DNA from: a virus
Reading direction: 5' to 3' (one strand)
Length of the DNA: 63,153 bases
IMG/VR virus record: IMGVR_UViG_3300032132_000007
Coordinates: 1-63,153 of that record
The position numbers and the translations under genes were made by a program. Shown here piece by piece: positions 14,890-31,815 of this stretch (positions within the stretch are counted from its first letter, which is position 1; each line of letters starts with the position of its first letter). The notes under the pieces were generated by a model, which made no database searches, was not told the origin of the DNA, and was given only the letters and a program-made list of their open reading frames with translations.

Positions 14890-14934
14890 GATTCCCTCCG
14901 GTGCAATCGTGTGTACGGAGGGGATGTATCGGTT

Positions 14935-16423: not shown

Positions 16424-16433
16424 AAGGTATACC

Positions 16434-19017: not shown

Positions 19018-19448
19018 GACGCTCGCTCGCTACGTGCCTGATGGCAGCGGTGATCCTCGGGTTCGGTATTGGTCGTGCTTCTCAGCCAGCGCCGGTCACC
19101 GGGTGGACAACCTCAGCCACTGTTGTTGATGTGTACGACGGAGACACATTGACGGTAGAGGTGACACGACGGATGCGTGTTCGCCTTCTGGACTGCTGGT
19201 GCAGCGAGGTACGGACTCGTGACAAGGCAGAGAAAAAGAAGGGCATCGCAGCACGGGAACACTTGAAGTCGATCCTGCCTGTGGGCAGTGAGGTTGTCCT
19301 GCAGATTCCAAACTCGACGGACCTGGGTAAGTCGTTTTCTTTCGGGCGGGTGTTAGGCCAGGTCTGGGACAGTCCAGATTCGGTGGAGTCGGTTGCTGAA
19401 AAAATGGTGGCAGCGGGTCACGCCACGAAATCAAAACCGAAACGCTAA
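19014..19448 (+). CDS. Secreted thermonuclease-like (SNase-fold) protein
   Basis: 144 residues from the ATG overlapping the preceding stop. Residues 1-25 form a basic-hydrophobic signal sequence. The body matches the staphylococcal nuclease OB fold: VVDVYDGDTLTV (38-49, with Ca-binding Asp42 and Asp44), RVRLLDCWCSEVRT (Arg57, Glu65) and FGRVLGQVW (Arg112). Arg57, Glu65 and Arg112 correspond to the catalytic Arg-Glu-Arg set of SNase. It should be exported and degrade DNA or RNA outside the cytoplasm. Possible roles are degradation of host debris or of competing phage DNA during lysis. It is the fifth gene of the cassette. Confidence 0.85.
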   Translation: MRRSLATCLMAAVILGFGIGRASQPAPVTGWTTSATVVDVYDGDTLTVEVTRRMRVRLLDCWCSEVRTRDKAEKKKGIAAREHLKSILPVGSEVVLQIPNSTDLGKSFSFGRVLGQVWDSPDSVESVAEKMVAAGHATKSKPKR

Positions 19449-19457
19449 AGGATTAGC

Positions 19458-19874
19458 ATGGTAGATGATCACGGTGGAACTCTGGACTGGAATAGCGGTG
19501 GAAAGACCAACGCTATTATGCAGTTGTCGATGAAGGTCGCAAAGCTGGAGACGTTCGTGCGCGAACTGGAAAAGGACGCGGTCGCTGCAGAGCGGGTGAT
19601 CAAGCAGGAGACCCGCATCGACATCCTGGAGTCACGTATGCAGCAGAGTGAGAAACAGGTCTCCGAGCTGGACGATCTGAAATCGGCAGCGAAATATGCC
19701 AATCCGAAGACGATCACGTTTCTGATCACGATATTGCTGGGTGGTAGTGTTGCTGGCAATTCGGCGATCGAGAAGATCACTGGTCGGAGTGAGGAGCAGC
19801 ACAATCAGAGTCAGGATGCACAGCTGCAGCGTCTGATGGAACTCATTAACAAACAGCCCGCTTCGGGTGAATGA
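19458..19874 (+). CDS. Coiled-coil membrane protein of the lysis operon
   Basis: 138 residues, ATG after AAAGGATTAGC. Residues 20-80 are a coiled coil (KVAKLETFVRELEKD, then QETRIDILESRMQQSEKQVSELDDL). Residues about 90-107 are a hydrophobic transmembrane segment (TITFLITILLGGSVAG). A polar Gln-rich tail follows. This layout resembles haemolysin XhlA-type or other holin-like accessory proteins, but I cannot name the family. It ends the plus-strand operon and faces the minus-strand cluster. Two DNA segments of this gene recur, one of them inverted, in the neighbouring coiled-coil gene. Confidence 0.75.
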   Translation: MVDDHGGTLDWNSGGKTNAIMQLSMKVAKLETFVRELEKDAVAAERVIKQETRIDILESRMQQSEKQVSELDDLKSAAKYANPKTITFLITILLGGSVAGNSAIEKITGRSEEQHNQSQDAQLQRLMELINKQPASGE

Positions 19875-19899
19875 GGAACGTCACACTCATCCCTGGCTG

Positions 19900-20238
19900 C
19901 TATTCCTGACCGGCGTTGCGTACGTCGTCGGACTCCTGGCTCACACTGTTTGATGGTTCTCCGCACTCCCCCAGCTGCGACAACGTGCTCCGAATTCGAT
20001 CCGCCCTCGCCTGGTCATCAAACAGGCTAAGTATCTGGTCATCAATAAGTATCCTGTTCAGGCGTGACGGAATCACAACCTGTGTGTTGCAGGTATCACA
20101 GCACCGGGCGTCGGTGCCACCAAGATCTGGGTAGTCCGGGCATTCTGGGTTGTGCCCCTGATCCCACCCGTTTACGGGGTCTGGTGTGATCGTGGCATCG
20201 CAGAAACAGCACTGCAGTTCCTCGTTTTGTGGTGGCAT
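19900..20238 (-). CDS. Small Cys-rich, zinc-ribbon-like protein
   Basis: 112 residues from the ATG whose first bases overlap the preceding stop (TGATG); the ribosome site GGAGG lies six bases upstream. The N-terminal half has paired cysteines: CCFC at about 11-14, then CPDYPD and CCDTC. This suggests a zinc-binding module. The C-terminal half is acidic and polar. Last gene of the long minus-strand operon. No family recognised. Confidence 0.7.
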   Translation of the reverse strand: MPPQNEELQCCFCDATITPDPVNGWDQGHNPECPDYPDLGGTDARCCDTCNTQVVIPSRLNRILIDDQILSLFDDQARADRIRSTLSQLGECGEPSNSVSQESDDVRNAGQE

Positions 20239-20726
20239 CACTTGCCTCCTTTCGACTTCATTGGTTGACCGTTGCGGTCAAGTGCGGGATGCCAATCGTT
20301 GTCTCGCCATCTCTCCATACACTCTTGCCAATGCTCCACTTTCCCGTAACAAACCTCCGATTGGGCGTTTGCGATCAGCCCCCAGGCTGCCTCCATGCCA
20401 TCCATCAGGCGTTCGATCTCTGCCCGCTGGAGTTCGTTCTCTGCACGCAGACGCTCGTTCTCTGCCCGCAGGTCTTCGTTCTCTGCATATTGGAGACGTT
20501 CGTGCGTGAGTTGGAAAAGGATGTCGATGCGAGTCTCCAGCGTGGTGACTCTTTCCCGAAGTTTGTGTAGTGTTGATTCACCATCGCTCACCTCATGTTC
20601 ATTATGTTCATTGAAGCGTCCGACGAGGGAGCCAACCATCTCCCACAGTCGATCGGTTTCGCCCCGCAGACGCTCGATTTCTCTCCGCACCAAGTTGCCC
20701 AAACACTCAAATTCCGATTTACTCAT
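20238..20726 (-). CDS. Heptad-repeat coiled-coil protein
   Basis: 162 residues, ATG overlapping the upstream gene's stop after GAGGTGATCG. The middle is a strong coiled coil with repeated heptads of the RAENERL type, preceded by KLRERVTTLETRIDIL. The heptads come from imperfect tandem DNA repeats at about 20405-20490. The C-terminal 60 residues contain a W-rich segment with CYGKVEHWQECMERWRDNDW. Function unknown. A DNA segment in the centre is shared in mosaic fashion with the gene at 19458. Confidence 0.75.
   Translation of the reverse strand: MSKSEFECLGNLVRREIERLRGETDRLWEMVGSLVGRFNEHNEHEVSDGESTLHKLRERVTTLETRIDILFQLTHERLQYAENEDLRAENERLRAENELQRAEIERLMDGMEAAWGLIANAQSEVCYGKVEHWQECMERWRDNDWHPALDRNGQPMKSKGGK
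20491..20537. repeat. Mosaic segment shared with 19546-19627, partly inverted
   Basis: Bases 20491-20520 match 19546-19575 in the same orientation at 27 of 30 positions. Bases 20518-20537 match the reverse complement of 19608-19627 at 19 of 20. The two matches meet at the same point, giving a junction of direct and inverted copies of two nearby pieces of one gene. Confidence 0.75.
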
Positions 20727-20991
20727 CGATCACCTCTTTCCCGAGTGAGGTAAACCTCCAGAACTTGTAGCCCAGCGCAACCGTGTCTTTGCCGACTCGC
20801 TCGCAGAGGTTATTCCACGCGGCGGGGTCGGGAATGCGGCGGGCAATCAGTTCCCACAACGGATCGTCTTTAATTTGTCGGTAGGCCAGCACAGCGGTCA
20901 CACTTTGTTCGCCATAATACTGGGCACGACGCTCTCTCCCTTCTCCCTCGATGCTTTGAGTCCCCTGTGGGGGCGTCTTATGTTTCTTCAT
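20719..20991 (-). CDS. Hypothetical small protein
   Basis: 90 residues beginning MKKHKTPP. Basic N terminus, then a helical body with DDPLWELIARRIPDPAAWNNLCERVG. No recognised family. Its stop region overlaps the next gene by eight bases and it follows the repeat protein at 20996 by four bases, so it belongs to the same operon. Confidence 0.65.
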   Translation of the reverse strand: MKKHKTPPQGTQSIEGEGRERRAQYYGEQSVTAVLAYRQIKDDPLWELIARRIPDPAAWNNLCERVGKDTVALGYKFWRFTSLGKEVIDE

Positions 20992-20995
20992 AGAG

Positions 20996-21676
20996 TCACG
21001 CTCCTGTCATACGAGGGATAAACCACCGCAGCAGCCAGTGCTTCCGCATCTGATCCAGCGTCGCCTCGATCGACGCCAGCCTGTGGTGCAGTACCAGGTC
21101 GGAGTCACGCAGCAGGTCCATCTGGCGGTCCAGGCCCCCAACCATTTCCTTCACACCATGCAGACCGATTGCCTCAGCCACACCGCATGTGAGTTGTTCG
21201 GTCAGCGTGTCGGTACTCACCACTTCCGCAAGTGCGCTATAGTCAATTTCCTCAGCAATACTGTCGTAGCAAAGATGGTCCCTTACACTGGTGTCGATTG
21301 CGTACGTGTCGATGTGTGCTGCGACCTCTTCCGCGTCCAGATACGAGGCGACAGCCGATGCGTCAACGTACTCGGCGACATCCGATGCCCCCATGTTTTC
21401 AGCGATGCTTTCGGAGAGGTCATTCAGATCAATGTGTTCAGCGATATTATCGGGATCAATCTCGGCAGCAATATCGCTCGCATCGATGTTCGCAGCCGCT
21501 CCCTCAGCGATTTGGTCGGCATCGATCTCTGACACCAACTCGCGTGCCAATGAACTGATGTCAATCGCAGCAGCCACTTTGGATGTAAAGAACTCCAGGT
21601 GGGACTGCATCTCACCATTCATTGGAGTGGTCTGTTCTTCGGTCGTGGTTTCTTCGGTCATGGTTTCTTCGGTCAT
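20996..21676 (-). CDS. Acidic nine-residue-repeat protein with C-terminal amphipathic tail
   Basis: 226 residues, ATG after AGGAG with eight-base spacing. The N terminus carries a short Thr/Glu repeat (MTEETMTEETTTEE). Residues 40-145 consist of degenerate nine-residue repeats of the form x-I/V-D-x-x-x-I/V-A-E (for example EIDPDNIAE, HIDLNDLSE, YVDASAVAS). At least eight copies are visible. The last 60 residues form a helix (DRQMDLLRDSDLVLHHRLASIE) and end in a basic, Trp-containing tail. The regular acidic repeat suggests a beta-solenoid or a nucleic-acid-mimic surface, but there is no sequence evidence for function. Confidence 0.75.
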   Translation of the reverse strand: MTEETMTEETTTEEQTTPMNGEMQSHLEFFTSKVAAAIDISSLARELVSEIDADQIAEGAAANIDASDIAAEIDPDNIAEHIDLNDLSESIAENMGASDVAEYVDASAVASYLDAEEVAAHIDTYAIDTSVRDHLCYDSIAEEIDYSALAEVVSTDTLTEQLTCGVAEAIGLHGVKEMVGGLDRQMDLLRDSDLVLHHRLASIEATLDQMRKHWLLRWFIPRMTGA

Positions 21677-22023
21677 CAGTGTGACTCCTGTCTTGGTGCG
21701 GTGATGGATGTCTGCAGGTCGAGGACGTTCGCTTCCAGTGCGGTGACCCGTTCATCCAGTGAGGTGACCAGGGCGAACAAATTACTGACCGGTGTTCCGC
21801 CAGTTGTGTAGGGTGCAGAATCCACCCCTGCGGCATCGAGCAATCCCTTTACCGCACTCGCTTTGAAATACTTCTTGTCTATTCCACAACTTGCGGCGAG
21901 CATTTCTCCGACTGCGGCGTAGCCTTTACCGGTCGGCAGGGCATCCGATTCGTGGAGCTTTTCCAGTGTTTTTGTGGCACTGTATCGATCCGCAGCATTC
22001 AGCCTGTAGATTTTGGTCGTCAT
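21676..22023 (-). CDS. Hypothetical small protein with C-terminal coiled coil
   Basis: 115 residues from the ATG that follows AGGAG by eight bases; an upstream in-frame Met lacks a ribosome site. N-terminal half is helical (KIYRLNAADRYSATKTLEKL). C-terminal half ends in VTSLDERVTALEANVLDLQ, a short leucine-zipper trimer. Stop overlaps the start of the repeat protein by four bases. Function unknown. Confidence 0.65.
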   Translation of the reverse strand: MTTKIYRLNAADRYSATKTLEKLHESDALPTGKGYAAVGEMLAASCGIDKKYFKASAVKGLLDAAGVDSAPYTTGGTPVSNLFALVTSLDERVTALEANVLDLQTSITAPRQESH

Positions 22024-22057
22024 CCAGCAATCTCCTGAAAGGGTAAGCAAACAAAGA

Positions 22058-22345
22058 TCAGTCATCAGTATCAGGACGAAGCGGTGTCCACCCGTCTGAC
22101 GGAGCGCCGTCTATCTTGTCGGGACCACCGTCGTGAGTGAGCGGTGGGTTACCGTCAGTGATTCCAGGAACCTGTGATCGGATCAGATCAACCCTACCTT
22201 TCCGGGCAGCGGCGATCAGTTTACAGGCGTACTCATAAGCGTCCTGATGTGATCCGAACTGTGCGACAGGTCCGTCCGGACAGTCCACGCCGAAGCATTC
22301 GTCCGACTCGTCATGTTCAATCATCAAACACACTCGGTAGGTCAT
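22058..22345 (-). CDS. Hypothetical small acidic protein
   Basis: 95 residues, strong ribosome site GAGGAGG. N-terminal MTYRVCLMIEHDE strand, then an FGSHQDAYEYACKLIAAARKG helix, then a Pro/Asp-rich disordered tail. No family recognised. Two bases separate it from the upstream YkgJ-like gene. Confidence 0.65.
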   Translation of the reverse strand: MTYRVCLMIEHDESDECFGVDCPDGPVAQFGSHQDAYEYACKLIAAARKGRVDLIRSQVPGITDGNPPLTHDGGPDKIDGAPSDGWTPLRPDTDD

Positions 22346-22347
22346 CC

Positions 22348-22878
22348 TTAATCCTCCTCGGGTTCGTCGGATACTTCCACACGTTGCAGACCCCGCTGAA
22401 ATCGACCACGCCGGTCATCCACGGGGTCAGCAACCGCACCAACATTCGCCAGTGCCAGCCACAGTTCTGGATAGTTTTCATCCAGAGATATCGTCTGTAA
22501 TGCGTGCCGATATCGCTCATCGTTGTCACCCTCCCGGTCCTGGCATACGTTGAACCGAGAGCATCCGAACGGTGCGACAGGATGCACAGAGCAGCGCCCG
22601 TCTTCCGTCAGGAAAACACACTGTCCGTTGGTCTCGTTCTGAGCCGGTACAATCGTGGGGATATACACCGACTCCCCGTGAACACGGACTGTCGATCCTT
22701 CACTTGCCGCGAAGTGTTCCGTAATCCATTCGAGGGTAGGCGGTCTGCCGAGGTACTTAGCAATCTTCTGCACGTCGCCCGGCACACACATCCCTGGCAT
22801 GTAGCGACAGGTGAGTGAGCATTTCCTGCAGTCGCAGTACGACCGTTCGTACTGGTCAAGGTCAGGTGCGTCGCTCAT
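22348..22878 (-). CDS. YkgJ-like cysteine-cluster protein
   Basis: 176 residues. N-terminal cysteines in CDCRKCSLTCRYMPG and a second cluster DGRCSVHPVAPFGCSRF match the CxxC ... GxCxxxPxxPxxCR plan of the YkgJ / UPF0153 family (putative Zn or Fe-S binding). The family is widespread in bacteria, has no defined reaction, and is rare in phages. Start ATG overlaps the stop of a newly noted 34-residue membrane protein (ATGA), indicating coupled translation. Confidence 0.75.
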   Translation of the reverse strand: MSDAPDLDQYERSYCDCRKCSLTCRYMPGMCVPGDVQKIAKYLGRPPTLEWITEHFAASEGSTVRVHGESVYIPTIVPAQNETNGQCVFLTEDGRCSVHPVAPFGCSRFNVCQDREGDNDERYRHALQTISLDENYPELWLALANVGAVADPVDDRRGRFQRGLQRVEVSDEPEED

Positions 22879-22979
22879 TGGTCATCCCTTTCCGAAAATA
22901 TCCAGTGCAGCGTGTAAAACATGGTGATCGACGCACAGACTGCGCCGCCCGCTGCCAGTATATCAACCAGTATTTTCAT
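22875..22979 (-). CDS. Small membrane protein (34 aa)
   Basis: 34 residues, start MKILVDILAAGG, with one hydrophobic segment spanning about 3-28 and a short charged end SERDDQ. It fits exactly between two neighbours: its ATG overlaps the upstream stop and its stop overlaps the downstream ATG, both as ATGA. That double coupling makes it a likely real gene despite its size. Role unknown. Confidence 0.65.
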   Translation of the reverse strand: MKILVDILAAGGAVCASITMFYTLHWIFSERDDQ

Positions 22980-23209
22980 TGTGTGTGCTGCGCCTCCACC
23001 ATGAGCCGCAGGTCTACCGGCATAGCGTCGTACACCTGTTTCTGCTGGCTCAAAGGACGGTCCATGAGTTCATCCATTGCGATGTTCCCGAAGAACGGAG
23101 AACTCGTATCGAAGTGAAGCCGGACCATAGCCAGATATAGCGTCACCTCGCTTTCAGATAGCGTCACCTGGCTTTCGGGGAGAGGCCCAGCAGTTGTGTC
23201 AGAATCCAT
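22976..23209 (-). CDS. Hypothetical small protein
   Basis: 77 residues. Begins MDSDTTAGPLPESQVTLSESEVTLYL, with a short repeated QVTLSESEVTL pattern, then a mixed helix with LDRPLSQQ-type polar residues. No membrane segment, no recognised family. ATG overlaps the upstream stop by one base and its own stop overlaps the 34-residue gene. Confidence 0.6.
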   Translation of the reverse strand: MDSDTTAGPLPESQVTLSESEVTLYLAMVRLHFDTSSPFFGNIAMDELMDRPLSQQKQVYDAMPVDLRLMVEAQHTQ

Positions 23210-23472
23210 TAGAACTGCTCCTGTGTTTCAGGGAGGAAATCGAAGTACAGACGGGGTTCATGTTGAAACGTGACCGTGCCTGACATGCCATCTGATTTCT
23301 GTGTGACAAAAGCGAACGGTGCCATGAACCCTTGAACTGTGAAATCCCGTAACAGTTCGGTCGTATCCCAGACCTCAGAACCACCCGACTCCAGTTCCTC
23401 ACGGGTTCGGGGAGTGCTGTTGATCCGTTGCTGCTCACTACGACGATGTTCTTCAGTTGTATCTGCCGACAT
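23209..23472 (-). CDS. Hypothetical small protein
   Basis: 87 residues from the ATG after AGGAGACAGGT; the longer frame upstream runs through a terminator-like hairpin and is not used. N terminus is polar and Glu/Arg-rich; C terminus has beta-like FMAPFAFVTQKSDGMSGTVTF and FDFLPE. Function unknown. It is the first gene after the hairpin at 23501. Confidence 0.65.
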   Translation of the reverse strand: MSADTTEEHRRSEQQRINSTPRTREELESGGSEVWDTTELLRDFTVQGFMAPFAFVTQKSDGMSGTVTFQHEPRLYFDFLPETQEQF

Positions 23473-23495
23473 ACCTGTCTCCTGTGGGGTAATAG

Positions 23496-23518
23496 AAAAA
23501 CCACCCGAATATGGGTGG
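23496..23518 (-). terminator. Hairpin with U-tract, minus strand
   Basis: CCACCC (23501-23506) pairs with GGGTGG (23513-23518) around a six-base loop, and on the minus strand the stem is followed by TTTTT. Placed between two minus-strand genes, so it can attenuate the operon. Very similar in sequence to the hairpin at 23883. Confidence 0.65.
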
Positions 23519-23534
23519 CGGGGAACTCCGACAG

Positions 23535-23852
23535 TCAGTCGATTGGTGCTCTCCAGAGTAGGTCGGAGAGATAGGACCGCAGTTTCTTCTGACCTTCCGG
23601 CTTTACCCGGTCGATTGCGGTCAGCACTTGCCTCAGTGCTTCGGTCAGTCTCACTGCGACCTGCTCCGCACCTTCCATACCGCCAAAGATGTCCCAATCA
23701 TCCGGTGTGCTGGGGAGTTCATACTCCCGGCGCAGGTAATGGCAGCGAACGCAGTTTTGAAACACCATATCCGGTTCCGTATCAATCGACCCGTACATGG
23801 ATGTCTCCCCAGCCACAGTCCTGAACGCTTTCACGGATTCATGTACTGTCAT
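23535..23852 (-). CDS. Hypothetical small protein
   Basis: 105 residues from the ATG after CAGGAGAGACGGCG; the upstream extension crosses a hairpin. Contains CVRCHY (a CxxC), a DDWDIFGGMEGAEQVAVRLTEALRQVLTAIDRV helix and a basic C-terminal helix. No recognised family. Confidence 0.65.
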   Translation of the reverse strand: MTVHESVKAFRTVAGETSMYGSIDTEPDMVFQNCVRCHYLRREYELPSTPDDWDIFGGMEGAEQVAVRLTEALRQVLTAIDRVKPEGQKKLRSYLSDLLWRAPID

Positions 23853-23873
23853 CGCCGTCTCTCCTGAAAGGGG

Positions 23874-23902
23874 AACAAGAAAGCCACCCATATCCGGGTG
23901 GC
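23874..23902 (-). terminator. Hairpin with partial U-tract, minus strand
   Basis: GCCACCC (23883-23889) and GGGTGGC (23896-23902) form a seven-base-pair stem; the minus strand continues with TTTCTTGTT. It follows the gene ending at 23924 and precedes the gene starting at 23852. Nearly the same sequence as the hairpin at 23501. Confidence 0.65.
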
Positions 23903-23923
23903 TTGTGGACTCCGGCTGTGGTC

Positions 23924-24844
23924 TCAGTCAAACAGTGCCAGAAGTTCGTCCATCGTTCTTCGTTTCTTAGCCTGCGGCCCCTCATCCACGACTTCCTCTT
24001 CCGGGGTCGGTTCCGGATCACCATCGTCCACACCGAGTGCTTTCTGCAGACCGTGACGCACCTGACTCAGTGCATCCTCGACATCCGTGGTGTAGTCCTG
24101 CAGGAGATCCCTGTACGCATCCAGCTTGGCCTGGGCAGCAGCAATGTTGGCAAAGGTTTTGTCCCGCTGCTTGTCACTGTCCTCATCGGTGATCGTGTCC
24201 AGCAGGGTGACGGATTCCTCAGCCTCATCCACCATTTTGTAGATGGCATCCCGGATACTGGTGGCGACCGACTCGCCACTTTTGCCGTCGCCGCTGATCT
24301 CGAACCGCTGGATGCTGCCACCGACCTCCCGGAGAAAGTCATCCACCCGATCGGTCACATCACTGGCAGACTCCGGAACAAAGTACACGCCTCCCTGCTG
24401 TCGGATCGGAATCAGGTCACTCTTCTGCCGGAACATCTTCTGCACAATGCGGGTCACATCATTCGCATTACGCTTCTGCATCTCCGTGTTGATCAGATGC
24501 TGTGCCCGCTGCTCGATGCCGTAATCTGTGCAGGTGACGATGCCGGATTTCTTATCCAATTCCAAGTCGCATTCCTTCGTGTACTTGAACTCGTTGATGT
24601 CCAGGTATTCGGAAGTGAATTGAAATTTGATCACATCCTCATCGGAGTATGTTTCCCGGATCACCCGGTTCTCCGTGAGCTGATGAACAGCACGACGCCA
24701 GGCATTGGATGGACGCATGTCCAGAGCCAGTGAGGACGGGAGGTTGCACCGTGCCATAGCTGCCTGCAGTGTGCTGAAGTGGACGCTTTTCGGGGCGACC
24801 CAACTGACGATCTCCCCAATCTGGCTTGTGAGTTTGAAGTTCAT
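23924..24844 (-). CDS. MoxR/VWA-associated protein of unknown function
   Basis: 306 residues from the ATG after GGGAGACACGCAGT. N-terminal 90 residues resemble a small winged-helix-like fold (QIGEIVSWVAPKSVHFSTLQ). The middle is mixed alpha/beta with VTRIVQKMF and GGVYFVPE. The C-terminal third is a coiled coil (about 215-265) then an acidic tail ending KKRRTMDELLALFD. It stands next to the VWA and MoxR genes. A protein of this general look travels with MoxR/VWA pairs in other phages (possibly DUF6744), which I infer from memory and have not confirmed. Confidence 0.7.
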   Translation of the reverse strand: MNFKLTSQIGEIVSWVAPKSVHFSTLQAAMARCNLPSSLALDMRPSNAWRRAVHQLTENRVIRETYSDEDVIKFQFTSEYLDINEFKYTKECDLELDKKSGIVTCTDYGIEQRAQHLINTEMQKRNANDVTRIVQKMFRQKSDLIPIRQQGGVYFVPESASDVTDRVDDFLREVGGSIQRFEISGDGKSGESVATSIRDAIYKMVDEAEESVTLLDTITDEDSDKQRDKTFANIAAAQAKLDAYRDLLQDYTTDVEDALSQVRHGLQKALGVDDGDPEPTPEEEVVDEGPQAKKRRTMDELLALFD

Positions 24845-24956
24845 ACTGCGTGTCTCCCATTGAAGTAAAAGTAAAACCGATGATCGGCGGTGTTGGATTG
24901 CATTACCTCGGCGTACTGTCCACTCCGGAGTGGAGACTACCTCGACCAACTCCCGC

Positions 24957-25013
24957 CAATCATCGAACCACTCGACCGCTCACCCAACCACCCATCGGCC
25001 CCTTCTTTGTACA
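24957..25013 (-). promoter_or_regulatory. Intergenic element A (box plus hairpin)
   Basis: Read on the minus strand: TGTACAAAGAAGGGG then CCGATGGGTGGTTGG (box, 25013-24985), followed by a GGTCGA / TTCGAT-type hairpin (24976-24957). It begins three bases after the stop of the VWA gene and lies upstream of the gene starting at 24844. One of a family of related elements up to 30.8 kb. Confidence 0.65.
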
Positions 25014-25015
25014 GA

Positions 25016-26356
25016 TCAGATACTCAACACATCCCGAACAACCTCAGCATCAGTACCGAGTACAGGAATGCTGGCGACTACATCGCTGATCGGTCGGAAG
25101 GAATCTCCACTGGTTCCGATGGCGATCGTCCACACCCTGGCCTGATTCGCAGCAGCGAACTGCTTGAAGGAAGCGACCTCTTCATCGAGAATGCGCGTCT
25201 CACCATCGGTGATCCAGATCACATCTGTCTTACCCTTTGGTGCGTTGGTTTCGTCGAAGAGACTTTGCATCTGTGACACAGGTGGGGTTGTCCCACCACA
25301 GTAGAACTCACTGCACCAGTCCATCAGTTTCGTCTGGTCGAACCGGTCAGGGGGAAGGGCGAGCGACCGGACCTGGCTGATAGACGACCAGCCCACCAGA
25401 GAAATCCACCGCTTCTGATGTCGTGCCAGCCACGCCAGGGCCAGCGCCAACCCTTTGGCATGGGCGATCGGGTCACCACCCATGCTGCCAGACTCATCGA
25501 TCAGCACCATGATCGGGCCTCGCCCTTCCCCCTCCATCGCTTTGTACTCACGGCACAGCGTCTCCTTCTCCATCAGCCGACGCAGTGTGTCCATCTCAGT
25601 TTCGGGAACACACAACGACGCCGCTTCTGAAGAAACGAGACGGGACAGGTCGTCATCCAGTGTGACTCCCACGTTGTCGTCCATGCCGTGTACTGGTTTC
25701 GACCGCTGAAGACTGGACGCCAGGCGGCGATACCGACCAGCCACTTCTGAGATATGCCTCAGCTGTGGGTCACCCTTCAAGCGACGGAAAGCCGCCATCA
25801 CATCTCTTCCGGACATGCCAGCATCGCCACCGGCACCGGTACCAAAGGCAGCCGCCGCATCCCGAGCATCCTTCACGTCATTCAACGCGTCTGCCACGGC
25901 TTTGCCCGTGGTCTTGATCCGTTCGATGATTTGATGGATGTTCTCAGTGTCCAGATCTTCTTCTGGTTCGGGATGTTCTGCTGCGAATTTTTTCCAATGT
26001 TTTAGTAACTGACCACATCCGATCTCAGCCATTTCCTCACTGCAGGCGGTCTGGGCGTGCAGGGATTTGAACTCCGGTGTATCCATGAGTTGCGTGAACC
26101 ACTGCTGACGCAGTGTGTCGGCGGTCTCATCAGCGGGCAGCAACTGTGGACGTGGTTCAAAGCACGCCGCAAACCCATCTGCCCATTCAGCATGAGTGTG
26201 GTGTTCCTCATCTTCGTCGATGCGTTCTGCGTGTCGCCGATTGAACAGGTCAACATGCAGCACCGTGTCCGACAGTTCCTTCTCTTCCACCTGTGTGCTG
26301 CCATCCACCGGAGTAACGTGGTCCGGTGTGGCATCCATCAGTTCATCGAATTCCAT
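25016..26356 (-). CDS. Von Willebrand factor A domain protein (CoxE/ViaA-like)
   Basis: 446 residues, ATG after GGGAGCAACAC. Residues 1-270 are helical and charged. Residues 280-446 are a VWA domain: MVLIDESGSMGG gives the MIDAS DxSxS (Asp287, Ser289, Ser291), Thr near 356 in GGTTPP and Asp384 in WITDGE complete the metal site. In bacteria such proteins pair with MoxR-type AAA+ ATPases and help assemble or activate metalloenzymes or remodel other complexes. Here the MoxR gene lies four genes upstream in the same operon, so a phage-encoded chaperone pair is likely. Confidence 0.88.
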   Translation of the reverse strand: MEFDELMDATPDHVTPVDGSTQVEEKELSDTVLHVDLFNRRHAERIDEDEEHHTHAEWADGFAACFEPRPQLLPADETADTLRQQWFTQLMDTPEFKSLHAQTACSEEMAEIGCGQLLKHWKKFAAEHPEPEEDLDTENIHQIIERIKTTGKAVADALNDVKDARDAAAAFGTGAGGDAGMSGRDVMAAFRRLKGDPQLRHISEVAGRYRRLASSLQRSKPVHGMDDNVGVTLDDDLSRLVSSEAASLCVPETEMDTLRRLMEKETLCREYKAMEGEGRGPIMVLIDESGSMGGDPIAHAKGLALALAWLARHQKRWISLVGWSSISQVRSLALPPDRFDQTKLMDWCSEFYCGGTTPPVSQMQSLFDETNAPKGKTDVIWITDGETRILDEEVASFKQFAAANQARVWTIAIGTSGDSFRPISDVVASIPVLGTDAEVVRDVLSI

Positions 26357-26381
26357 GTGTTGCTCCCGTGTCCAATGAAAA

Positions 26382-26438
26382 AGGCGACCGAACCAATCGA
26401 TCGCCTACCAACCACCCATCGCCCCCTGCTTTTTACAG
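26382..26438 (-). promoter_or_regulatory. Intergenic element B (box plus hairpin with U-tract)
   Basis: Minus strand: CTGTAAAAAGCAGGGGG, GATGGGTGGTTGG (26438-26408), then the stem GGCGATCGA/TTCGGTCGCC and TTTTT. It starts three bases after the stop of the 26441 gene and ends just before the ribosome site of the VWA gene. The hairpin with T-run looks like an intrinsic terminator or attenuator. Confidence 0.7.
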
Positions 26439-26440
26439 TC

Positions 26441-26650
26441 TCATGAGTCACACTCCTTTAATGTGGCAACGGTGATGTCGTAACGTCGCTGATGATCGCT
26501 CAGGTCAGCCTGTGCCGCTGCCAAATAAGCAGTCAACTGACTCACCAGGTATTCCGGGCAGGTGCTCTGGCGGATCAAACAATCGCCGATTGTCGCGCCG
26601 GGGTTGTGCTGGTCCCGTTGCCGGTCACGCAGTGCGGTGATGTGTTTCAT
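26441..26650 (-). CDS. Hypothetical small protein
   Basis: 69 residues, ATG overlapping the upstream stop (ATGA), ribosome site GGAG. Amphipathic helical C-terminal half (SQLTAYLAAAQADLSDHQRR). Two cysteines. No recognised family. Confidence 0.65.
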   Translation of the reverse strand: MKHITALRDRQRDQHNPGATIGDCLIRQSTCPEYLVSQLTAYLAAAQADLSDHQRRYDITVATLKECDS

Positions 26651-27090
26651 TGGTCACACTCCTTTGGAGAGAACGTGACTTTGCCACACTGTTCGGCCCG
26701 GTGTATCTCCATGAACGCATACTTCCACGGACCACCGTCTTCCTCCATCAGGCAGGTCGCTTCGTCCACAGAGATCCCTTTGTGATGTGCTATCAGTTCG
26801 GCGGGACTGCTGAACACCCTTTCGTGATCCGGTTCCAGCTTTCCAATGCGGGGATGCAGGTCTTCGTGACCACAGTTGGCACGATATTTCGCAGCCCCAG
26901 CACACTGTTGTCCCTCCCCGACAGTGGCATTGTTGTCCGGAGACTCCATGTGGCAGGGTAGAATCGCATTGATCATCCCCTGTCCCACAAACCGCTCGCT
27001 GTTGTCGCCCCGTGTGTCCAGGTATTCCTTGTCTGTGGACCGAGAGTACGGGCATTGCGAGCAGCATTCCTTGCGCTGTGGCGTGAACAT
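26647..27090 (-). CDS. Cys/His cluster protein (DUF6283-like)
   Basis: 147 residues, strong ribosome site GAGGAGG. Cysteine plan: ECCSQCPYSRS near the start, then PCHMES, then QQCAGAAKY and CGHEDLH. The CxxCPY ... CH ... CAG order resembles DUF6283-type small metal-binding proteins. Function of that family is unknown. It is one of several Cys-rich small proteins in this operon. Confidence 0.65.
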   Translation of the reverse strand: MFTPQRKECCSQCPYSRSTDKEYLDTRGDNSERFVGQGMINAILPCHMESPDNNATVGEGQQCAGAAKYRANCGHEDLHPRIGKLEPDHERVFSSPAELIAHHKGISVDEATCLMEEDGGPWKYAFMEIHRAEQCGKVTFSPKECDQ

Positions 27091-27341
27091 CAGCGGTCCT
27101 CCTCGTAAGATCTGTCGCTTATGTCGTTGCCGATCAGGTGGTAGTACAGGGCGCTGATCTCCAGCTTCGTGTCACCGTCGGACGCTGTGTCGTAAGCCAA
27201 CACAAGCAGTGCGACCTGCTCGTGTTTCGACCGGTTTCTGATCCGGTCATAAATCTCGAAGATGTTCAGGTTCCACCACCAATTGGACACCTCCCCAGAG
27301 ATGTCATCATCCTGTTCGTTTTCACACTGTGGGCAGCTCAT
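27090..27341 (-). CDS. Hypothetical small protein with N-terminal CxxC
   Basis: 83 residues, start MSCPQCENEQDD preceded by GAGGAGGACAA. A single CPQC pair at the N terminus, then a Trp-rich stretch (NWWWNLNIFEIYDRI) and a helical body (KHEQVALLVLAYDTA). No recognised family. Ends one base into the next gene. Confidence 0.65.
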   Translation of the reverse strand: MSCPQCENEQDDDISGEVSNWWWNLNIFEIYDRIRNRSKHEQVALLVLAYDTASDGDTKLEISALYYHLIGNDISDRSYEEDR

Positions 27342-27350
27342 TTGTCCTCC

Positions 27351-27569
27351 TCAGTTCATTTCTGCAGCGGCACGCCGCTTTGTTTTGACATGCTCTCTGT
27401 ACAACGCCAACGACAACGCCGCCATCGAGCAGAGCGCCATCATCTCTGCCGTAGATAACTCCAGCATCCCTTCATCCGGCTGGGCTGTTATGGTTTTTCC
27501 TACCTTCTCTAATGCTTCTTCCGCTACGTCTGCCATCCCATCGGGGATGAAGTCCAAATAGTCATCCAT
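27351..27569 (-). CDS. Hypothetical small protein
   Basis: 72 residues from MDDYLDFIPDG, which follows GGAGG at seven bases; the upstream Met has no ribosome site. Acidic N terminus, hydrophobic helix MLELSTAEMMALCSMAALSLALY (possibly membrane-associated), basic end KTKRRAAAEMN. Function unknown. Confidence 0.65.
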   Translation of the reverse strand: MDDYLDFIPDGMADVAEEALEKVGKTITAQPDEGMLELSTAEMMALCSMAALSLALYREHVKTKRRAAAEMN

Positions 27570-27864
27570 CTTGATGCCTCCGGAGTTTGAACATTCCGAA
27601 CCGGCGATCGTCATAGCAGTACGCTACGACCAGATCGCCACCAAAACCGGTGCGAGATTCACCGACCACCACTGCCATCTTGTTTGTATAAACACGGTCG
27701 ATGCCGACCGATAACAGGAGAGCTTCAATCACCATGCTCCCGGCACACTCCACGACCACCAGATCCCCGGTCTCGTATTCCACATCATGCAGCGTCACCG
27801 TATCCGGTAACCCATAGTGCATGTCGCACACCACCTCGCCGATCTCGGGATGTCTTTGGTTCAT
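27562..27864 (-). CDS. Hypothetical beta-rich small protein
   Basis: 100 residues from the ATG after GAGGATATTCA. Short alternating hydrophobic strands (DTVTLHDVEYETGDLVVVECAG, KMAVVVGESR, GDLVVAYCYD) suggest a small beta-barrel. Its 3' end overlaps the next gene by eight bases. First gene after the terminator that follows MoxR. Function unknown. Confidence 0.65.
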   Translation of the reverse strand: MNQRHPEIGEVVCDMHYGLPDTVTLHDVEYETGDLVVVECAGSMVIEALLLSVGIDRVYTNKMAVVVGESRTGFGGDLVVAYCYDDRRFGMFKLRRHQDG

Positions 27865-27881
27865 TGAATATCCTCGTGGTT

Positions 27882-27930
27882 GAAAGAAAAGGGGTCGCCC
27901 AGGGAGGCACCACCGAACCCAGGCGACCCC
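27882..27930 (-). terminator. Strong intrinsic terminator after MoxR gene
   Basis: GGGGTCGCC (27891-27899) and GGCGACCCC (27922-27930) form a nine-base-pair stem extended by CCAGGG/ACCC pairs. The minus strand then reads TTTTCTTTC. It lies 12 bases beyond the MoxR stop, so it ends or attenuates the MoxR transcript. Confidence 0.8.
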
Positions 27931-27941
27931 GGCGGCCATAC

Positions 27942-29054
27942 TCACAGTCCGCACAGCTCCCGGACTTCCTCCATCCGTTCCTGGATGTAGGTCGCAGCCT
28001 GTGTGCCACGACCATTCGCACCGGGCAGTGCTTTGACTCGCTCCCGGCAGGATTTGAGCTTTCTCAGTACGCTCAACCGCTGTGCCGAAACATCCAGGTC
28101 GTTCCCGGACTCGTCACAACCATCCATCGCTTCTTGGACTTCGGCAAGGATGGTGTTGATCTCCGACCCCACTGGATTGGCGATCTTTTCCACGATTGCC
28201 TGCACAACGGCAGGATGCTCCACCGGATCGGTCCAGTAGACATACTTGAGACACTCAAGGTGGTGTGGTTCCACCTCGTCGGCGTCGTCCAGATATGCTG
28301 CGGCACGCACCACATCCATTGAGGCACGCAGCCTGCGGTCACCGATCTCGATTCCTTCCTTCTTCAGCAGGTCGAGGATTTCCACGACCGCTTTCCACGC
28401 CGGTTCCGACACATCCAGCTCAGACGCAGCAATGATCGCGTCGTCGATCTCGTCCATTGTCGTGATCGGCTGAATGTCAGGCTGCGTACCCAGCATTAGC
28501 CGACGCCGATTAGCGTCAGACACCGGGCGAACAACCCCACGAATCAGGAACCTGTCGTACAGGGCAGCGGTCGTTTCGTACCCCTCTCCGACCGGCCATT
28601 CATTGCTGGCGGCGAAACACGAACGCATACGGCACTCAACAACATCAGTGCCATTGCGGAACGTCCGCTCGTTCAGCAACTTCAGCAACGTGTTGAGGAG
28701 AGCGGGTGACGCTTTCCAGATTTCATCCAGGAAGATCAGGTCTGCTGTCGGAGCGAACCCCTCGATCTTCCGAACGTAGTTGTCCTTCTTGAACTCGGTC
28801 ACGCTCATTTGTCCGACCAGTTCATCAGGCGGCAGGAACTTGTGCATGAGTGTGCCGAAGTGTTCACAGTCGTCGATTGTCTGTGCGAACGAGTCACACA
28901 GATATGACTTGCCAACGCCGGGAGGCCCGACCAGGCAGACGTTTTGCTCACTGATGAGACCGAGCAGCAGCATTTCGACCTGCTCGTCCCGTTCGACCAG
29001 ACAGCGGGCCAATGTGGTCCGCATCCCGTTGATTCCTGCGGCTGTTGCGTTCAT
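27942..29054 (-). CDS. MoxR-type AAA+ ATPase
   Basis: 370 residues from the ATG after GGAGGTACCAC. Walker A GPPGVGKS at 43-50, Walker B LIFLDE at 106-111, the NERTF motif near 128-132 that is typical of MoxR/RavA ATPases, sensor-1 Asn151 (AASNEWP) and a likely arginine finger at Arg168 (LYDRF). The C-terminal lid domain and a helical tail follow. MoxR ATPases act with VWA proteins as chaperones for complex assembly or cofactor insertion; the VWA gene lies downstream at 25016. What the pair acts on here is unknown. Confidence 0.9.
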   Translation of the reverse strand: MNATAAGINGMRTTLARCLVERDEQVEMLLLGLISEQNVCLVGPPGVGKSYLCDSFAQTIDDCEHFGTLMHKFLPPDELVGQMSVTEFKKDNYVRKIEGFAPTADLIFLDEIWKASPALLNTLLKLLNERTFRNGTDVVECRMRSCFAASNEWPVGEGYETTAALYDRFLIRGVVRPVSDANRRRLMLGTQPDIQPITTMDEIDDAIIAASELDVSEPAWKAVVEILDLLKKEGIEIGDRRLRASMDVVRAAAYLDDADEVEPHHLECLKYVYWTDPVEHPAVVQAIVEKIANPVGSEINTILAEVQEAMDGCDESGNDLDVSAQRLSVLRKLKSCRERVKALPGANGRGTQAATYIQERMEEVRELCGL

Positions 29055-29077
29055 GTGGTACCTCCAAGAAACAAAAA

Positions 29078-29135
29078 GAGCCGGATCGACCACCGACCCG
29101 GCTACCAACCACCCATCCGGCCCTGCTTTTTACAG
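29078..29135 (-). promoter_or_regulatory. Intergenic element C (box plus hairpin with U-tract)
   Basis: Minus strand: CTGTAAAAAGCAGGG then CCGGATGGGTGGTTGG (29135-29105), then AGCCGGGTCG / CGATCCGGCT hairpin (29103-29078) followed by CTTTTTG. Directly upstream of the MoxR ribosome site (GGAGGTACCAC). Confidence 0.7.
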
Positions 29136-29150
29136 AGACTGCCTCTTCAC

Positions 29151-29315
29151 TCAGTCAAATACGTTATTCACGAAAAAATCATGCACGGTTGCTATTGCGG
29201 TTTCCTGCCGCTTCTTTTCGTCCAGTAAATCTGGGTCGTTGGCGACGATGCTCTCGTCGAGCGTGTTGCCGCCTGCCAGTTGCAGTACCATCTCTATCGC
29301 ATCTTCCAATTTCAT
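29151..29315 (-). CDS. Hypothetical small protein (54 aa)
   Basis: 54 residues starting MKLEDAIEMVLQLAGG, preceded by GAGGAGAGAAC at the right spacing. Fully helical and acidic, ending VHDFFVNNVFD. It fills the gap between elements C and D. No recognised family, but the ribosome site and codon use support it. Confidence 0.6.
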   Translation of the reverse strand: MKLEDAIEMVLQLAGGNTLDESIVANDPDLLDEKKRQETAIATVHDFFVNNVFD

Positions 29316-29345
29316 GTTCTCTCCTCTGAGAAACGATCCTCGAAC

Positions 29346-29366
29346 ACCACTCCCTGCTTTTTACAG
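29346..29366 (-). promoter_or_regulatory. Intergenic element D (partial box)
   Basis: Minus strand CTGTAAAAAGCAGGGAGTGG. It matches the 5' half of elements B and C exactly (CTGTAAAAAGCAGGG) but lacks the CCGATGGG part and the hairpin. It lies two bases after the TAG stop of the 29369 gene. Confidence 0.6.
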
Positions 29367-29368
29367 GA

Positions 29369-29602
29369 CTACCAAGCCACACTCAGTGGCCCATAAGAGA
29401 ACAGGAACTCCAGTCTGTTCGCTCCCAGCCAGCCTCCACTGGTCGGACCACAGACGACAAACGGTCCACAGTGACCCGGATCATGGTCCTGGCCTGCTTC
29501 CAGCCCGGAGACCGCTTCTCCGAGGCTTAATGCCCAGCGCCAGCAGTCGCTGGCTCCCGATCCCGTCGTTTTTCGAAGCAGTGCGTACAGTTCTTTCCTC
29601 AT
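29369..29602 (-). CDS. Hypothetical small protein
   Basis: 77 residues from an ATG overlapping the upstream stop (ATATGA). Contains two cysteines and a Gly-rich stretch GHCGPFVVCGPTSGGWLG, perhaps a compact beta-hairpin. A TTG seven codons upstream is a weaker start. No recognised family. Confidence 0.6.
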   Translation of the reverse strand: MRKELYALLRKTTGSGASDCWRWALSLGEAVSGLEAGQDHDPGHCGPFVVCGPTSGGWLGANRLEFLFSYGPLSVAW

Positions 29603-29799
29603 ATGGTCCCTTTCTTTTGCCAATCGTGGTCGTACTCGCCTGTCTGGGCATCGAAAACAGTCTCAAACCGGAGACTGATGTCTCCCGCTTTGACTCTTTC
29701 GACAAGCTTTTTTTCTGCTTCCGGGATCAGTGTGTCGGGGTCCGTGCCGGGAGCAGCCTCGACACTTATCACACTTTCCACGTCAAAGTCATAAATCAT
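29599..29799 (-). CDS. Hypothetical small protein
   Basis: 66 residues, start MIYDFDVESVISV after AGGAGCCACCAC. Predicted beta-alpha-beta layout (VISVEAAPGTDPDTLIPEAEKKLVERVKAG, then DISLRFETVFD). Overlaps both neighbours by four bases. Function unknown. Confidence 0.65.
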   Translation of the reverse strand: MIYDFDVESVISVEAAPGTDPDTLIPEAEKKLVERVKAGDISLRFETVFDAQTGEYDHDWQKKGTI

Positions 29800-30107
29800 G
29801 TGGTGGCTCCTGCCAGTTGCTGTCGGAAATCACTCAGATCGGCCCGGAACGCTGCCATCTGTTCGGCAGAGAAGTCTGCCGTCATGTGCAGGCAGTCTGC
29901 TGTGCAGTTGATCGCTGTTCGCAACCATTTGGTGCGAATTACTGCGGTCGGCTGCCTGCAGAACTTCTCGAACCCTCTGATCGCCTCGATCCGGGAAGGG
30001 AACTCCCCGCACTCTCCCAGTCGGTCGTCACTCAGGTCACTGGCATGGAACTGTCTGCCTGCCAGCGACACTCGGATGCCGTCACGCTCTACAACTGCTT
30101 CTCTCAT
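29796..30107 (-). CDS. Hypothetical small protein
   Basis: 103 residues from the ATG preceded by GGAGGTACCAC, the same 11-base leader as the MoxR gene. Beta start (MREAVVERDGIRVSLAGRQF), then a helical C-terminal half with two cysteines (NCTADCLHM). No recognised family. Preceded by element E. Confidence 0.65.
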   Translation of the reverse strand: MREAVVERDGIRVSLAGRQFHASDLSDDRLGECGEFPSRIEAIRGFEKFCRQPTAVIRTKWLRTAINCTADCLHMTADFSAEQMAAFRADLSDFRQQLAGATT

Positions 30108-30137
30108 GTGGTACCTCCATCTCGCCATAAACCGCTC

Positions 30138-30188
30138 GGATCGACCATCGACCCGCAACAACCATCCATCCGGCCCTTCTGTTTACAC
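30138..30188 (-). promoter_or_regulatory. Intergenic element E (box plus perfect hairpin)
   Basis: Minus strand: GTGTAAACAGAAGGG, CCGGATGGATGG (30188-30161), then the hairpin GGGTCGA-TGG-TCGATCC (30154-30138). The stop codon TAA of the upstream gene lies inside the box. The 17-base hairpin is identical to that of element F. Confidence 0.7.
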
Positions 30189-30413
30189 AGCAGATTCTTC
30201 CGGCACGATGACCGCCCTGAATGCTCCGTAGATTTGGACCCTAAGCTGGCAGCACACCACATGGGTCATGTTTCTTTGCGACCACCCTGGACCGCCATTG
30301 GTCGCTTCACAAATCTCCTCCAGTGCAGAGAGCCAGTCGGTGATTTTGTCCGTGACGGCCTGCTTGCCCTCGGTGTCCCGAAGGTCTTTAAGGTTTTCAA
30401 TGAGTTTGTCCAT
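30183..30413 (-). CDS. Hypothetical small protein
   Basis: 76 residues from MDKLIENLKDLRD after AGGAGCAATCTC; an upstream extension runs through element F. N-terminal helix, then EEICEATNGGPGWSQRN and a hydrophobic strand THVVCCQLRVQIYGAF. Function unknown. Its stop codon is embedded in element E. Confidence 0.65.
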   Translation of the reverse strand: MDKLIENLKDLRDTEGKQAVTDKITDWLSALEEICEATNGGPGWSQRNMTHVVCCQLRVQIYGAFRAVIVPEESAV

Positions 30414-30446
30414 GAGATTGCTCCTGTGAGTAGTTGGGGAAGCAGC

Positions 30447-30498
30447 GGATCGACCATCGACCCGTCGCCAAATACCCATCGGTCCCTGCTGTTCAAAG
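30447..30498 (-). promoter_or_regulatory. Intergenic element F (box plus perfect hairpin)
   Basis: Minus strand: CTTTGAACAGCAGGGA, CCGATGGGTA (30498-30473), then GGGTCGA-TGG-TCGATCC (30463-30447), the same 17 bases as in element E. Directly upstream of the 30413 start. Confidence 0.7.
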
Positions 30499-30633
30499 AG
30501 AAGAACTAGAAGTGTCTGCCCGCCTCACGTTCACCGGGCTGAAAGTCGCGCGCGTTTCCCTTTCTCCGTAATGCCGATACTGCCGCAGTCTTTCGTTCTC
30601 AAGACGGAACGACTCCGCTCTCGTCACGCTCAA
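30493..30633 (-). CDS. Possible small protein (46 aa), weak start
   Basis: An open minus-strand frame ending with a TGA inside element F, as other genes here do. Starts available are TTG at 30633 or GTG at 30627, neither with a convincing ribosome site. The product would be basic and coiled-coil-like (ESFRLENERLRQYRHYGERE) with a Ser-rich end. It fills a gap between elements F and G, which is the main reason to list it. Confidence 0.35.
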   Translation of the reverse strand: MSVTRAESFRLENERLRQYRHYGERETRATFSPVNVRRADTSSSSL

Positions 30634-30675
30634 AGTGCTGGGTCCGAGCAGTGTTCCCCTGGTGTCTGTAAGTAT

Positions 30676-30731
30676 GGCCGGAAATCCGGCCTGGAATCAC
30701 CGTAAACCCATCGGTCCCTACGGTTTACACG
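30676..30731 (-). promoter_or_regulatory. Intergenic element G, first of the minus-strand operon
   Basis: Minus strand: CGTGTAAACCGTAGGGA then CCGATGGGTTTA (30731-30703). GTAAACC and GGTTTAC within it form an inverted repeat. A perfect hairpin GGCCGGA/TCCGGCC follows at 30691-30676. No minus-strand gene lies upstream of it, so it is the best candidate for the promoter of the leftward operon. Confidence 0.65.
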
Positions 30732-30773
30732 CAGGCATTAAATACAGGAACAGTGTCTGTACTTGTTTTTCTC

Positions 30774-30795
30774 TTTACAAAGCAGGGACCGATGG
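30774..30795 (+). promoter_or_regulatory. Intergenic element H, plus-strand copy of the box
   Basis: Plus strand TTTACAAAGCAGGGA then CCGATGG. It shares AGGGACCGATGG with elements F and G but points rightward, about 45 bases from G. It lies about 65 bases upstream of the first rightward gene at 30863. Inversion of the box together with the direction of transcription is the strongest hint that it is a promoter or transcription-start element. Confidence 0.65.
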
Positions 30796-30862
30796 TCTGA
30801 TGTTGTCCGGTCGGCTGCGTTGGTCGGCTGTGGTTTGTTGTTCTGAAGGAGGCACCGACGTG

Positions 30863-31261
30863 ATGAGAGAAAACGAAGTTCTGCGGCGGTTGGCTGCGGG
30901 GAGGCTCAAACGCCGCGAGACGATGTACCGTTGCAAGGCTGCGGGCTATTTGCGGGAAAGACCGGATTCGGTAGACGATGCGGTTCAAGATCTGCTGATG
31001 CTCGATCATCAGCGGTCTGCTTCAATTCCGGACGATCGGCACAGGTTTGTCCGCTGCTGGAATTTGTGGCTAATGCAAGAGCATCGTCGACGTGCAAAGG
31101 AAGAGCGCACCGCCGAAGCCGTGACCACATACGGCGAACTGAAGCGCATCAGGATCCGGGATATCCACCGGGGGTCAGACGGGAAACCGGTACCAGTCCT
31201 GGCGAATGGTCTGCTGCACAGAAACCCGACAACGCCGGACAAATACGCAGAGTACTGCTGA
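30863..31261 (+). CDS. Hypothetical basic protein, possible sigma-like or DNA-binding
   Basis: 132 residues; ATG with an adjacent in-frame GTG (30860), AGGAGG upstream. Highly charged and helical: MRENEVLRRLAAGRLKRRETMYRCKAAGYL, then DAVQDLLMLDHQRSASIPDDRHRFVRCWNLWLMQEHRRR. The middle vaguely recalls sigma region 2-type helices but lacks clear motifs, so I do not assign it. First gene of the short rightward operon behind element H. Confidence 0.6.
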   Translation: MRENEVLRRLAAGRLKRRETMYRCKAAGYLRERPDSVDDAVQDLLMLDHQRSASIPDDRHRFVRCWNLWLMQEHRRRAKEERTAEAVTTYGELKRIRIRDIHRGSDGKPVPVLANGLLHRNPTTPDKYAEYC

Positions 31262-31317
31262 GTGAAACGCGACAGGAACCACCACTTTTCTTTTCTCGAC
31301 ATTGAAGGACAGAAGAC

Positions 31318-31815
31318 ATGAAAACGACACGCAAAACAGCACGTAAAACGGCACGTAAATCCAGCAGCCGGAAACAGACCGCCAGTCAGAAACTGACTGC
31401 GTTTGTGACGAGGATGATTGCGGAATTCGGCGACGACGACGACGCAGCAGAGATGATCCAGACCATTGGAATTCTGCAGGCGGACAGCCCGCCATATGTC
31501 AAGAAATCTGCCAGGATGATTGACCGGGCAGCACGACGACAGACGGACGACTTCGATCTGCTTGAGGACTTGGCGGACGAAGCAGAGGACTGGACAGAAT
31601 CGCCACAGGTCGAGACTCTGCCAGGCGTCTACATCAAGCCTGCTTCAGGGGATTACCCCGCTATGCTGGCAATTCGGAAAACGCTCCGCGGAGCGGTCGG
31701 CGAAGGCAAAGAGACGTGGTGTGGTCCGGCGATCTGTCAGACACTGCTCGACACGATTGCGGACGGCAGTCTTCAGAACACGCTGGACGCAGTCGTGAAG
31801 GCTAACGCAGACTGA
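31318..31815 (+). CDS. Basic-tailed hypothetical protein
   Basis: 165 residues. The N-terminal 25 residues are a Lys/Arg/Thr-rich tail (TRKTARKTARKSSSRK) resembling histone-like tails. The body is acidic and helical (EFGDDDDAAEMIQTIG, DLADEAEDW), followed by a mixed domain with CGPAICQTLL. The tail could bind nucleic acid. No family recognised. It ends 24 bases before a strong terminator. Confidence 0.65.
   Translation: MKTTRKTARKTARKSSSRKQTASQKLTAFVTRMIAEFGDDDDAAEMIQTIGILQADSPPYVKKSARMIDRAARRQTDDFDLLEDLADEAEDWTESPQVETLPGVYIKPASGDYPAMLAIRKTLRGAVGEGKETWCGPAICQTLLDTIADGSLQNTLDAVVKANAD

Follow-up and report, generated by a model that had tools for sequence, protein, structure and literature searches.

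Repeated box-and-hairpin cassettes before the genes of a MoxR-ATPase/vWA operon in an uncultured phage

The virus record IMGVR_UViG_3300032132_000007 of IMG/VR (63,153 bases, 56.7% G+C), referred to here as the window, raises the question of why one short sequence should stand again and again between the genes of a single operon. Eight copies of a 22-base-pair (bp) box, most of them with a hairpin behind, lie between 24992 and 30795, in the promoter-proximal part of a leftward operon that spans approximately 30.7 to 19.9 kilobases (kb) and includes genes for a MoxR-type AAA+ ATPase and a vWA-domain protein. Proteins matching an SU10-type portal and adaptor are encoded in the same window. The reading favoured here, for which we hold the case to be about evenly balanced, is that each cassette of box and hairpin would be a transcription-start unit for its own gene, with a leader hairpin read by its loop.

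The motif, TNTRMAMAGMAGGGNSSGATGG, was obtained by aligning the eight sites into a 22-column matrix, with which both strands of the window were scanned. The eight boxes scored 26.9 to 32.1 bits and the next best site in the window 15.9 bits; as the matrix was trained on these same eight boxes the informative part is the gap rather than the scores themselves, and this gap marks the boxes as one family, confined to 24.9 to 30.8 kb and with no copy elsewhere in the window. A 14-base search allowing up to three mismatches returned nine matches, eight of them the boxes, against 2.7 ± 1.8 in shuffled sequences, and all eight sites listed in the original prediction, which had given no strands, were recovered by both searches. 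Seven copies are on the minus strand, along the leftward operon: A (TGTACAAAGAAGGGGCCGATGG, 24992..25013), B (TGTAAAAAGCAGGGGGCGATGG, 26416..26437), C (TGTAAAAAGCAGGGCCGGATGG, 29113..29134), D (TGTAAAAAGCAGGGAGTGGTGT, 29344..29365, with a degenerate second half), E (TGTAAACAGAAGGGCCGGATGG, 30166..30187), F (TTTGAACAGCAGGGACCGATGG, 30476..30497) and G (TGTAAACCGTAGGGACCGATGG, 30708..30729), with the first base of the motif at 25013, 26437, 29134, 29365, 30187, 30497 and 30729, respectively. Copy H (TTTACAAAGCAGGGACCGATGG, 30774..30795, first base 30774) is on the plus strand, ahead of a rightward gene (30860-31261), and all eight copies are oriented along transcription. The boxes had been said to occur only in the leftward operon, which is right in that none lies elsewhere in the window and wrong for copy H, which belongs to the divergent gene. 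Copies G and H form an outward-facing pair with 44 bp between their first bases, each heading one of the two divergent units, and the interval between them (30734-30765) is partly palindromic (ACAGGAACAGTGTCTGT) and could be an operator.

The position of the boxes relative to the genes is regular. In copies A, B and D the box begins 3 to 4 nucleotides (nt) past the last base of a stop codon, namely 3 nt past that of the vWA gene (25016-26356) at 25016 and 4 nt past those at 26441 and 29369, and in copy E the TAA of the box (TGTAAAC) is itself the stop codon, at 30183, of the gene at 30183-30413. Copy F (30497) holds, by reading, the TGA of a short upstream frame, and copy C follows the gene ending at 29151 with its box starting 17 nt past the end of the stop codon, so that the predicted placement immediately after or across a stop codon is exact for A, B, D and E, looser for C and by reading for F. 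The distance from box to start codon is 80-84 nt in B, C, E and F, 86 nt in H, 50 nt in D and 169 nt in A; copy D has no hairpin and its leader is approximately 30 nt shorter. From the stop codon of the preceding gene, copies A, B, C, E and F run through box and hairpin to the ribosome site and ATG; copy H is laid out likewise, with no gene before it. From the ribosome site over the start codon, copies C and E have TGGAGGTACCACATGA in common and B resembles F, which makes it probable that entire cassettes have been copied. No conserved column was present upstream of the box in the eight-site alignment, and no sigma-70 consensus was found at the boxes, a scan of the region giving one site against 3.2 expected. 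A G-quadruplex in the G-rich box was considered and rejected, as it is not kept in the sequence of the second phage described below, and an antisense RNA to the boxes was rejected because no complementary site occurs elsewhere in the window on either strand.

A family hairpin follows the box in six of the eight copies (A, B, C, E, F and H). Copy A has GTCGA-GTGGT-TCGAT (24962..24976, minus strand), with five inner pairs formed and the outer two of seven unpaired, while copies E and F have the same 19-nt hairpin, CGGGTCGATGGTCGATCCG, which folds as CGGGTCG-ATGGT-CGATCCG (30137..30155 and 30446..30464, both minus strand). Of all structures in the region, the two that most resemble terminators are the hairpins of copy B (AGGCGATCGA-TTGGT-TCGGTCGCCT, 26382..26406, minus strand, then a T-run), which stands in the leader of the vWA gene, and copy C (AGCCGGGTCG-GTGGT-CGATCCGGCT, 29079..29103, minus strand, then CTTTTTG), which belongs to the MoxR ATPase leader. 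The hairpins predicted for A, B, C, E and F and the T-runs of B and C were confirmed, and the identity of the E and F hairpins holds, over 19 bases instead of the 17 first given. The hairpin of copy H (CGGTCGGCT-GCGTT-GGTCGGCTG, 30808..30830, plus strand), which contains many G-U pairs, had been missed.

Loop and stem behave differently. The window loops, UUGGU, GUGGU, AUGGU and GCGUU, follow the pattern NYGKU, and the distance from box to loop is 39-43 nt in all nine hairpin-bearing copies of the window and the second phage. When these nine hairpins were centred on the loop with a 7-bp stem, 60 of 63 cells were paired, against a mean of 41 when the 3' arms were reshuffled among the sequences, and both bases departed from the commonest pair in 18 cells, compared with 5.4 after shuffling; none of 5000 arm shuffles matched either count, although the numbers overstate independence because copies within a phage are related, and the loop positions were chosen after the sequences had been seen. 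A pair counter applied to eight hairpins found changes on both sides at six of the seven pairs. Judged by these compensating stems, the hairpin appears to be under selection as RNA. The pattern NYGKU occurs in 13 of the 236 hairpins with at least 7 bp and a 5-nt loop in both phages, and seven of the 13 are cassettes. The recurring loop pattern suggests a factor that reads it. Rfam gave no match over 24000-31500 at E values up to 1. An antiterminator fold between variable box bases and the 3' arm of the hairpin was promising for B and C at first, and was dropped when their own pairs were not clearly the best in a 5 x 5 energy table.

The same design was sought in other genomes. No sequence neighbours of the window were found by blastn among 50,697 phage records, exact box patterns gave more than one box in no record of the viral and bacterial contigs searched, and relatives reached through the terminase, portal and head protein had structural genes in common with the window and gave no match to its operon. 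An alignment of MoxR ATPases from the window, Moorella phage MTATph1 and two fecal phage contigs led to 80 viral loci, in which the ATPase closest to that of the window belongs to IMGVR_UViG_3300037842_000637 (57,958 bases; G033 in our set, hereafter the second phage). A search based on the vWA protein reached the second phage again and nothing further.

In the second phage the three module genes are present in the same order. Their window counterparts are the MoxR-type ATPase gene (27942..29054, minus strand, 80 nt after copy C; 41% identity), the vWA-domain gene (25016..26356, minus strand, 81 nt after copy B; 40%) and a gene of unassigned function for a 306-amino-acid (aa) protein (23924..24844, minus strand, after copy A; 34%). 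Further operon proteins are 41% and 67% identical, and the two phages otherwise have few genes in common. The gene content and order between the cassettes differ, and the 147-aa gene that is 67% identical is placed between the ATPase and vWA genes in the window, whereas the second phage has it downstream of its module. In a blind search of the second phage for repeats, all three module genes proved to be preceded by a cassette, at 46848, 48312 and 49803, consisting of TAGAAAGAGCTTGG, four variable bases, CGGTACGTTT and then a hairpin. The loops are GUGUU, GUGGU and GCGUU, the last with a T-run, the distance from box to ATG is 86-90 nt and that from box to loop 41-42 nt. The upstream stop codon lies inside the box at 48312 and a few bases before it at 49803, and the first cassette heads the operon and adjoins a divergent gene.

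The three module genes are also present in the contigs G044, G032 and G036 and at locus L204 (27-39% identity). In G044 (L243-L245) boxes of the form TTGYGC, 16-17 nt, TARATT, seven of them on the plus strand and one on the minus, occur before all three module genes among others, and many of them start at a TAG stop codon. Between 18429 and 55723 the loop CCGAGAA recurs unchanged on differing stems in eight hairpins, all on the plus strand and none on the minus strand (raw counts of the loop 7-mer, 21 versus 2 on the two strands), and most of these hairpins stand in leaders behind the repeated promoter-like box. A hairpin is missing from the copy before the vWA gene, where the start codon is predicted directly behind the box, resembling a leaderless transcript. 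Judged from sequence, G044 offers a clean example of this kind of element outside the two phages. G032 (L165) has seven copies of TGTCACCCCTGCCGGATAAC over 13158-31059 on the minus strand, some of them before all three module genes and most followed by small hairpins; at 13158 the box is the 5' arm of a terminator. L204 carries CTGCTCGAAC four times, together with two hairpins and a ribosome site. At the corresponding place L199 has sigma-70 promoters of the plain type (TTGACA/TATATT), and in several of the 80 loci no such unit precedes the ATPase. Phages with the MoxR-ATPase/vWA module thus have a tendency to place repeated units of their own ahead of its genes, and in the clearest cases the box of the unit looks like a promoter; the phages compared were found through the ATPase only, and the habit may not be special to the module.

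Several of these observations favour a unit belonging to each gene: copies head both divergent units, the distance from box to ATG is nearly constant, the stems are compensated, and other phages with the operon have repeated promoter-like boxes at the corresponding positions. By analogy with G044 and L199, whose boxes resemble -35/-10 promoters that would start transcription just ahead of a hairpin or leader, the window box is most likely a start site of an unnamed type, with the hairpin forming the 5' portion of the transcript. The box, of approximately 22-28 bp, would act on DNA as a phage-specific promoter or an activator-dependent start site, giving each gene or small gene group its own transcript start; if the start were near the end of the box, the new RNA would carry the hairpin at its 5' end, at a fixed distance. 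There the sequence of the loop, NYGKU, could be recognised while the stem remains variable, in the simplest case by a regulator that binds RNA; alternatively, the hairpin might serve as a 5' cap against decay. With their T-runs, copies B and C could also terminate and so lower expression of the next gene, vWA and ATPase, respectively.

A number of points weigh against this reading. No -35/-10 layout is seen in the box, which could be assigned to no named promoter type, and no gene for a single-subunit RNA polymerase was seen among the genes scanned, which were part of the gene set. Two of the eight copies are without the family hairpin, D having none and G an unrelated one (GGCCGG-ATTT-CCGGCC, 30676-30691, minus strand). 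T-runs stand behind only three of the nine hairpins (B, C and the copy at 49803 in the second phage), from which a general attenuator does not follow; the original prediction of a promoter plus attenuator unit fits best in its first half, as a start and leader unit for each gene, and support for its attenuator is limited to these three copies, the remaining hairpins having no T-run. The similarity between the boxes of the two phages is not significant, about one-fifth (0.2) of random 107-nt stretches scoring equally, and homology of the boxes is not claimed. A covariance model trained on three copies of the window misses those of the second phage, the model that recovers them having been trained on them. 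The claim is therefore limited to a common design and position, and the conservation in relatives that had been anticipated extends to design, spacing, loop and gene position and not to the exact box sequence.

The layout of linear box, fixed spacing and recurring loop on a varying stem is also that of a nut site, and copies head both divergent units, as would suit an RNA-only element of nut or put type in which the box and a boxB-like hairpin load an antitermination complex for read-through of downstream terminators. We regard such an element as possible but doubtful. Seven copies are present though one or two sites per operon would do, copies B and C are themselves terminator-like, the copies at 29365 and 30729 are without the hairpin, and Rfam recognised none. 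The outward pair at 44 bp favours a start site over a signal in RNA only, because two full and separate promoters would need to overlap there, and none is seen. Lambda nut also combines a linear box with a small hairpin behind it, the loop of which is recognised by its sequence; in comparison, the window box and spacer are longer, the loop is different, and there are many copies per operon, two of them terminator-like. No boxA sequence was seen by eye on the sense strand of the window cassettes, and a boxA resemblance on the antisense strand (TGCTTTTTACA) was rejected, its strand and order being wrong for a nut site.

The nearest known kind is the promoter-early stem-loop (PeSL) cassette of T4-like phages, in which a sigma-70-like promoter is combined with a stem-loop that is a terminator. 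As described in PMC4503421, which cites Arbiol 2010 and Comeau 2014, these cassettes too are short repeated intergenic units of promoter and stem-loop among small phage genes, several per region and oriented with the genes. That the window cassettes are of this kind, kept mainly by gene-swapping recombination and with a hairpin that only ends the upstream transcript, would agree with the likeness of C to E (TGGAGGTACCACATGA) and of B to F at their starts, as if whole cassettes had been copied, and with the different placing of the 147-aa gene in the two phages. It is unlikely nonetheless, as a simple terminator would work without a conserved loop, only three of the nine hairpins have T-runs, and the head copies carry a hairpin yet have no upstream gene. 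The window cassettes differ from PeSL further in having no sigma-70 consensus and in a loop that is conserved while the stem varies.

Cluster K mycobacteriophages have a 13-bp asymmetric start-associated sequence at the translation start, with an inverted repeat upstream in its extended form (SAS/ESAS; PMC3203893), and resemble the window in having a repeated asymmetric sequence and inverted repeat before many non-structural genes, mostly in one orientation and at part of the genes. The window box is instead 80-90 nt upstream (for most copies, 80-86 nt ahead of the ATG), the hairpin is downstream of the box, between it and the ribosome site, and the stems are not conserved in sequence. The stoperators of the temperate Cluster A mycobacteriophage L5, 13-bp repressor sites on DNA that have no hairpin and are spread over the genome (PMC9283540), are matched by all eight boxes in being asymmetric, in short intergenic gaps and oriented with transcription. 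A repressor bound to the boxes and blocking elongation in a prophage is very improbable all the same, as it does not require the RNA hairpin, the sites do not extend beyond one operon and the divergent unit beside it, and no repressor or integrase was identified among the scanned proteins. About as improbable is a signal for processing or translation of a single polycistronic mRNA (an endonuclease site, or reinitiation at the stop codon), since, although the box often touches or includes the upstream stop in the window, the second phage and G044, the head copies have no upstream gene and a hairpin of 7-10 bp is short for RNase III.

If the loop is read as proposed for the start-and-leader unit, the cassettes would represent a new RNA-based regulon in phages; if it is not, they would be PeSL-like cassettes outside the T4-like phages, and would then still indicate that the layout has arisen more than once. 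In either case one design stands before orthologous genes of phages that are otherwise little alike, with sequences that differ from phage to phage, and it offers a testable handle on one-by-one gene control in uncultured phages and on a loop-reading factor. It also provides a recipe for finding regulons: a repeated box at the stop codon, a fixed distance from box to loop, a fixed loop and a varying stem. A wider proposal, which we put forward tentatively and think somewhat improbable, is that each phage with the module holds a private code of a repeated promoter-like box and a hairpin with fixed loop and free stem, in which an RNA-binding factor of the phage would read the loop and control termination or stability of every operon transcript, box and loop turning over while their positions stay.

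Several individual proteins were noted as well. A 374-aa protein of the Sigma-70 family (14935-16059, minus strand), with region 2 and an unusual C-terminal half, is a possible reader of phage promoters; a sigma factor as the reader common to both phages was set aside, as the second phage has no Sigma70_r2 match. The first rightward gene downstream of copy H (30860..31261, plus strand) encodes a 133-aa protein in which, by eye, the central part (DDAVQDLLM...RFVRCWNLWLMQEHRRR) is similar to sigma region 2; the protein has no family match, and its structure model is poor (mean predicted local distance difference test score, pLDDT, 48). In the second phage a 1081-aa protein with a HINT/intein-like domain is encoded at L239:4658-7903 (minus strand). 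In the window, the gene at 50943-54878 (plus strand) encodes a 1311-aa protein with four stretches of the SU10 adaptor family, that is, a tandemly repeated adaptor in one chain.

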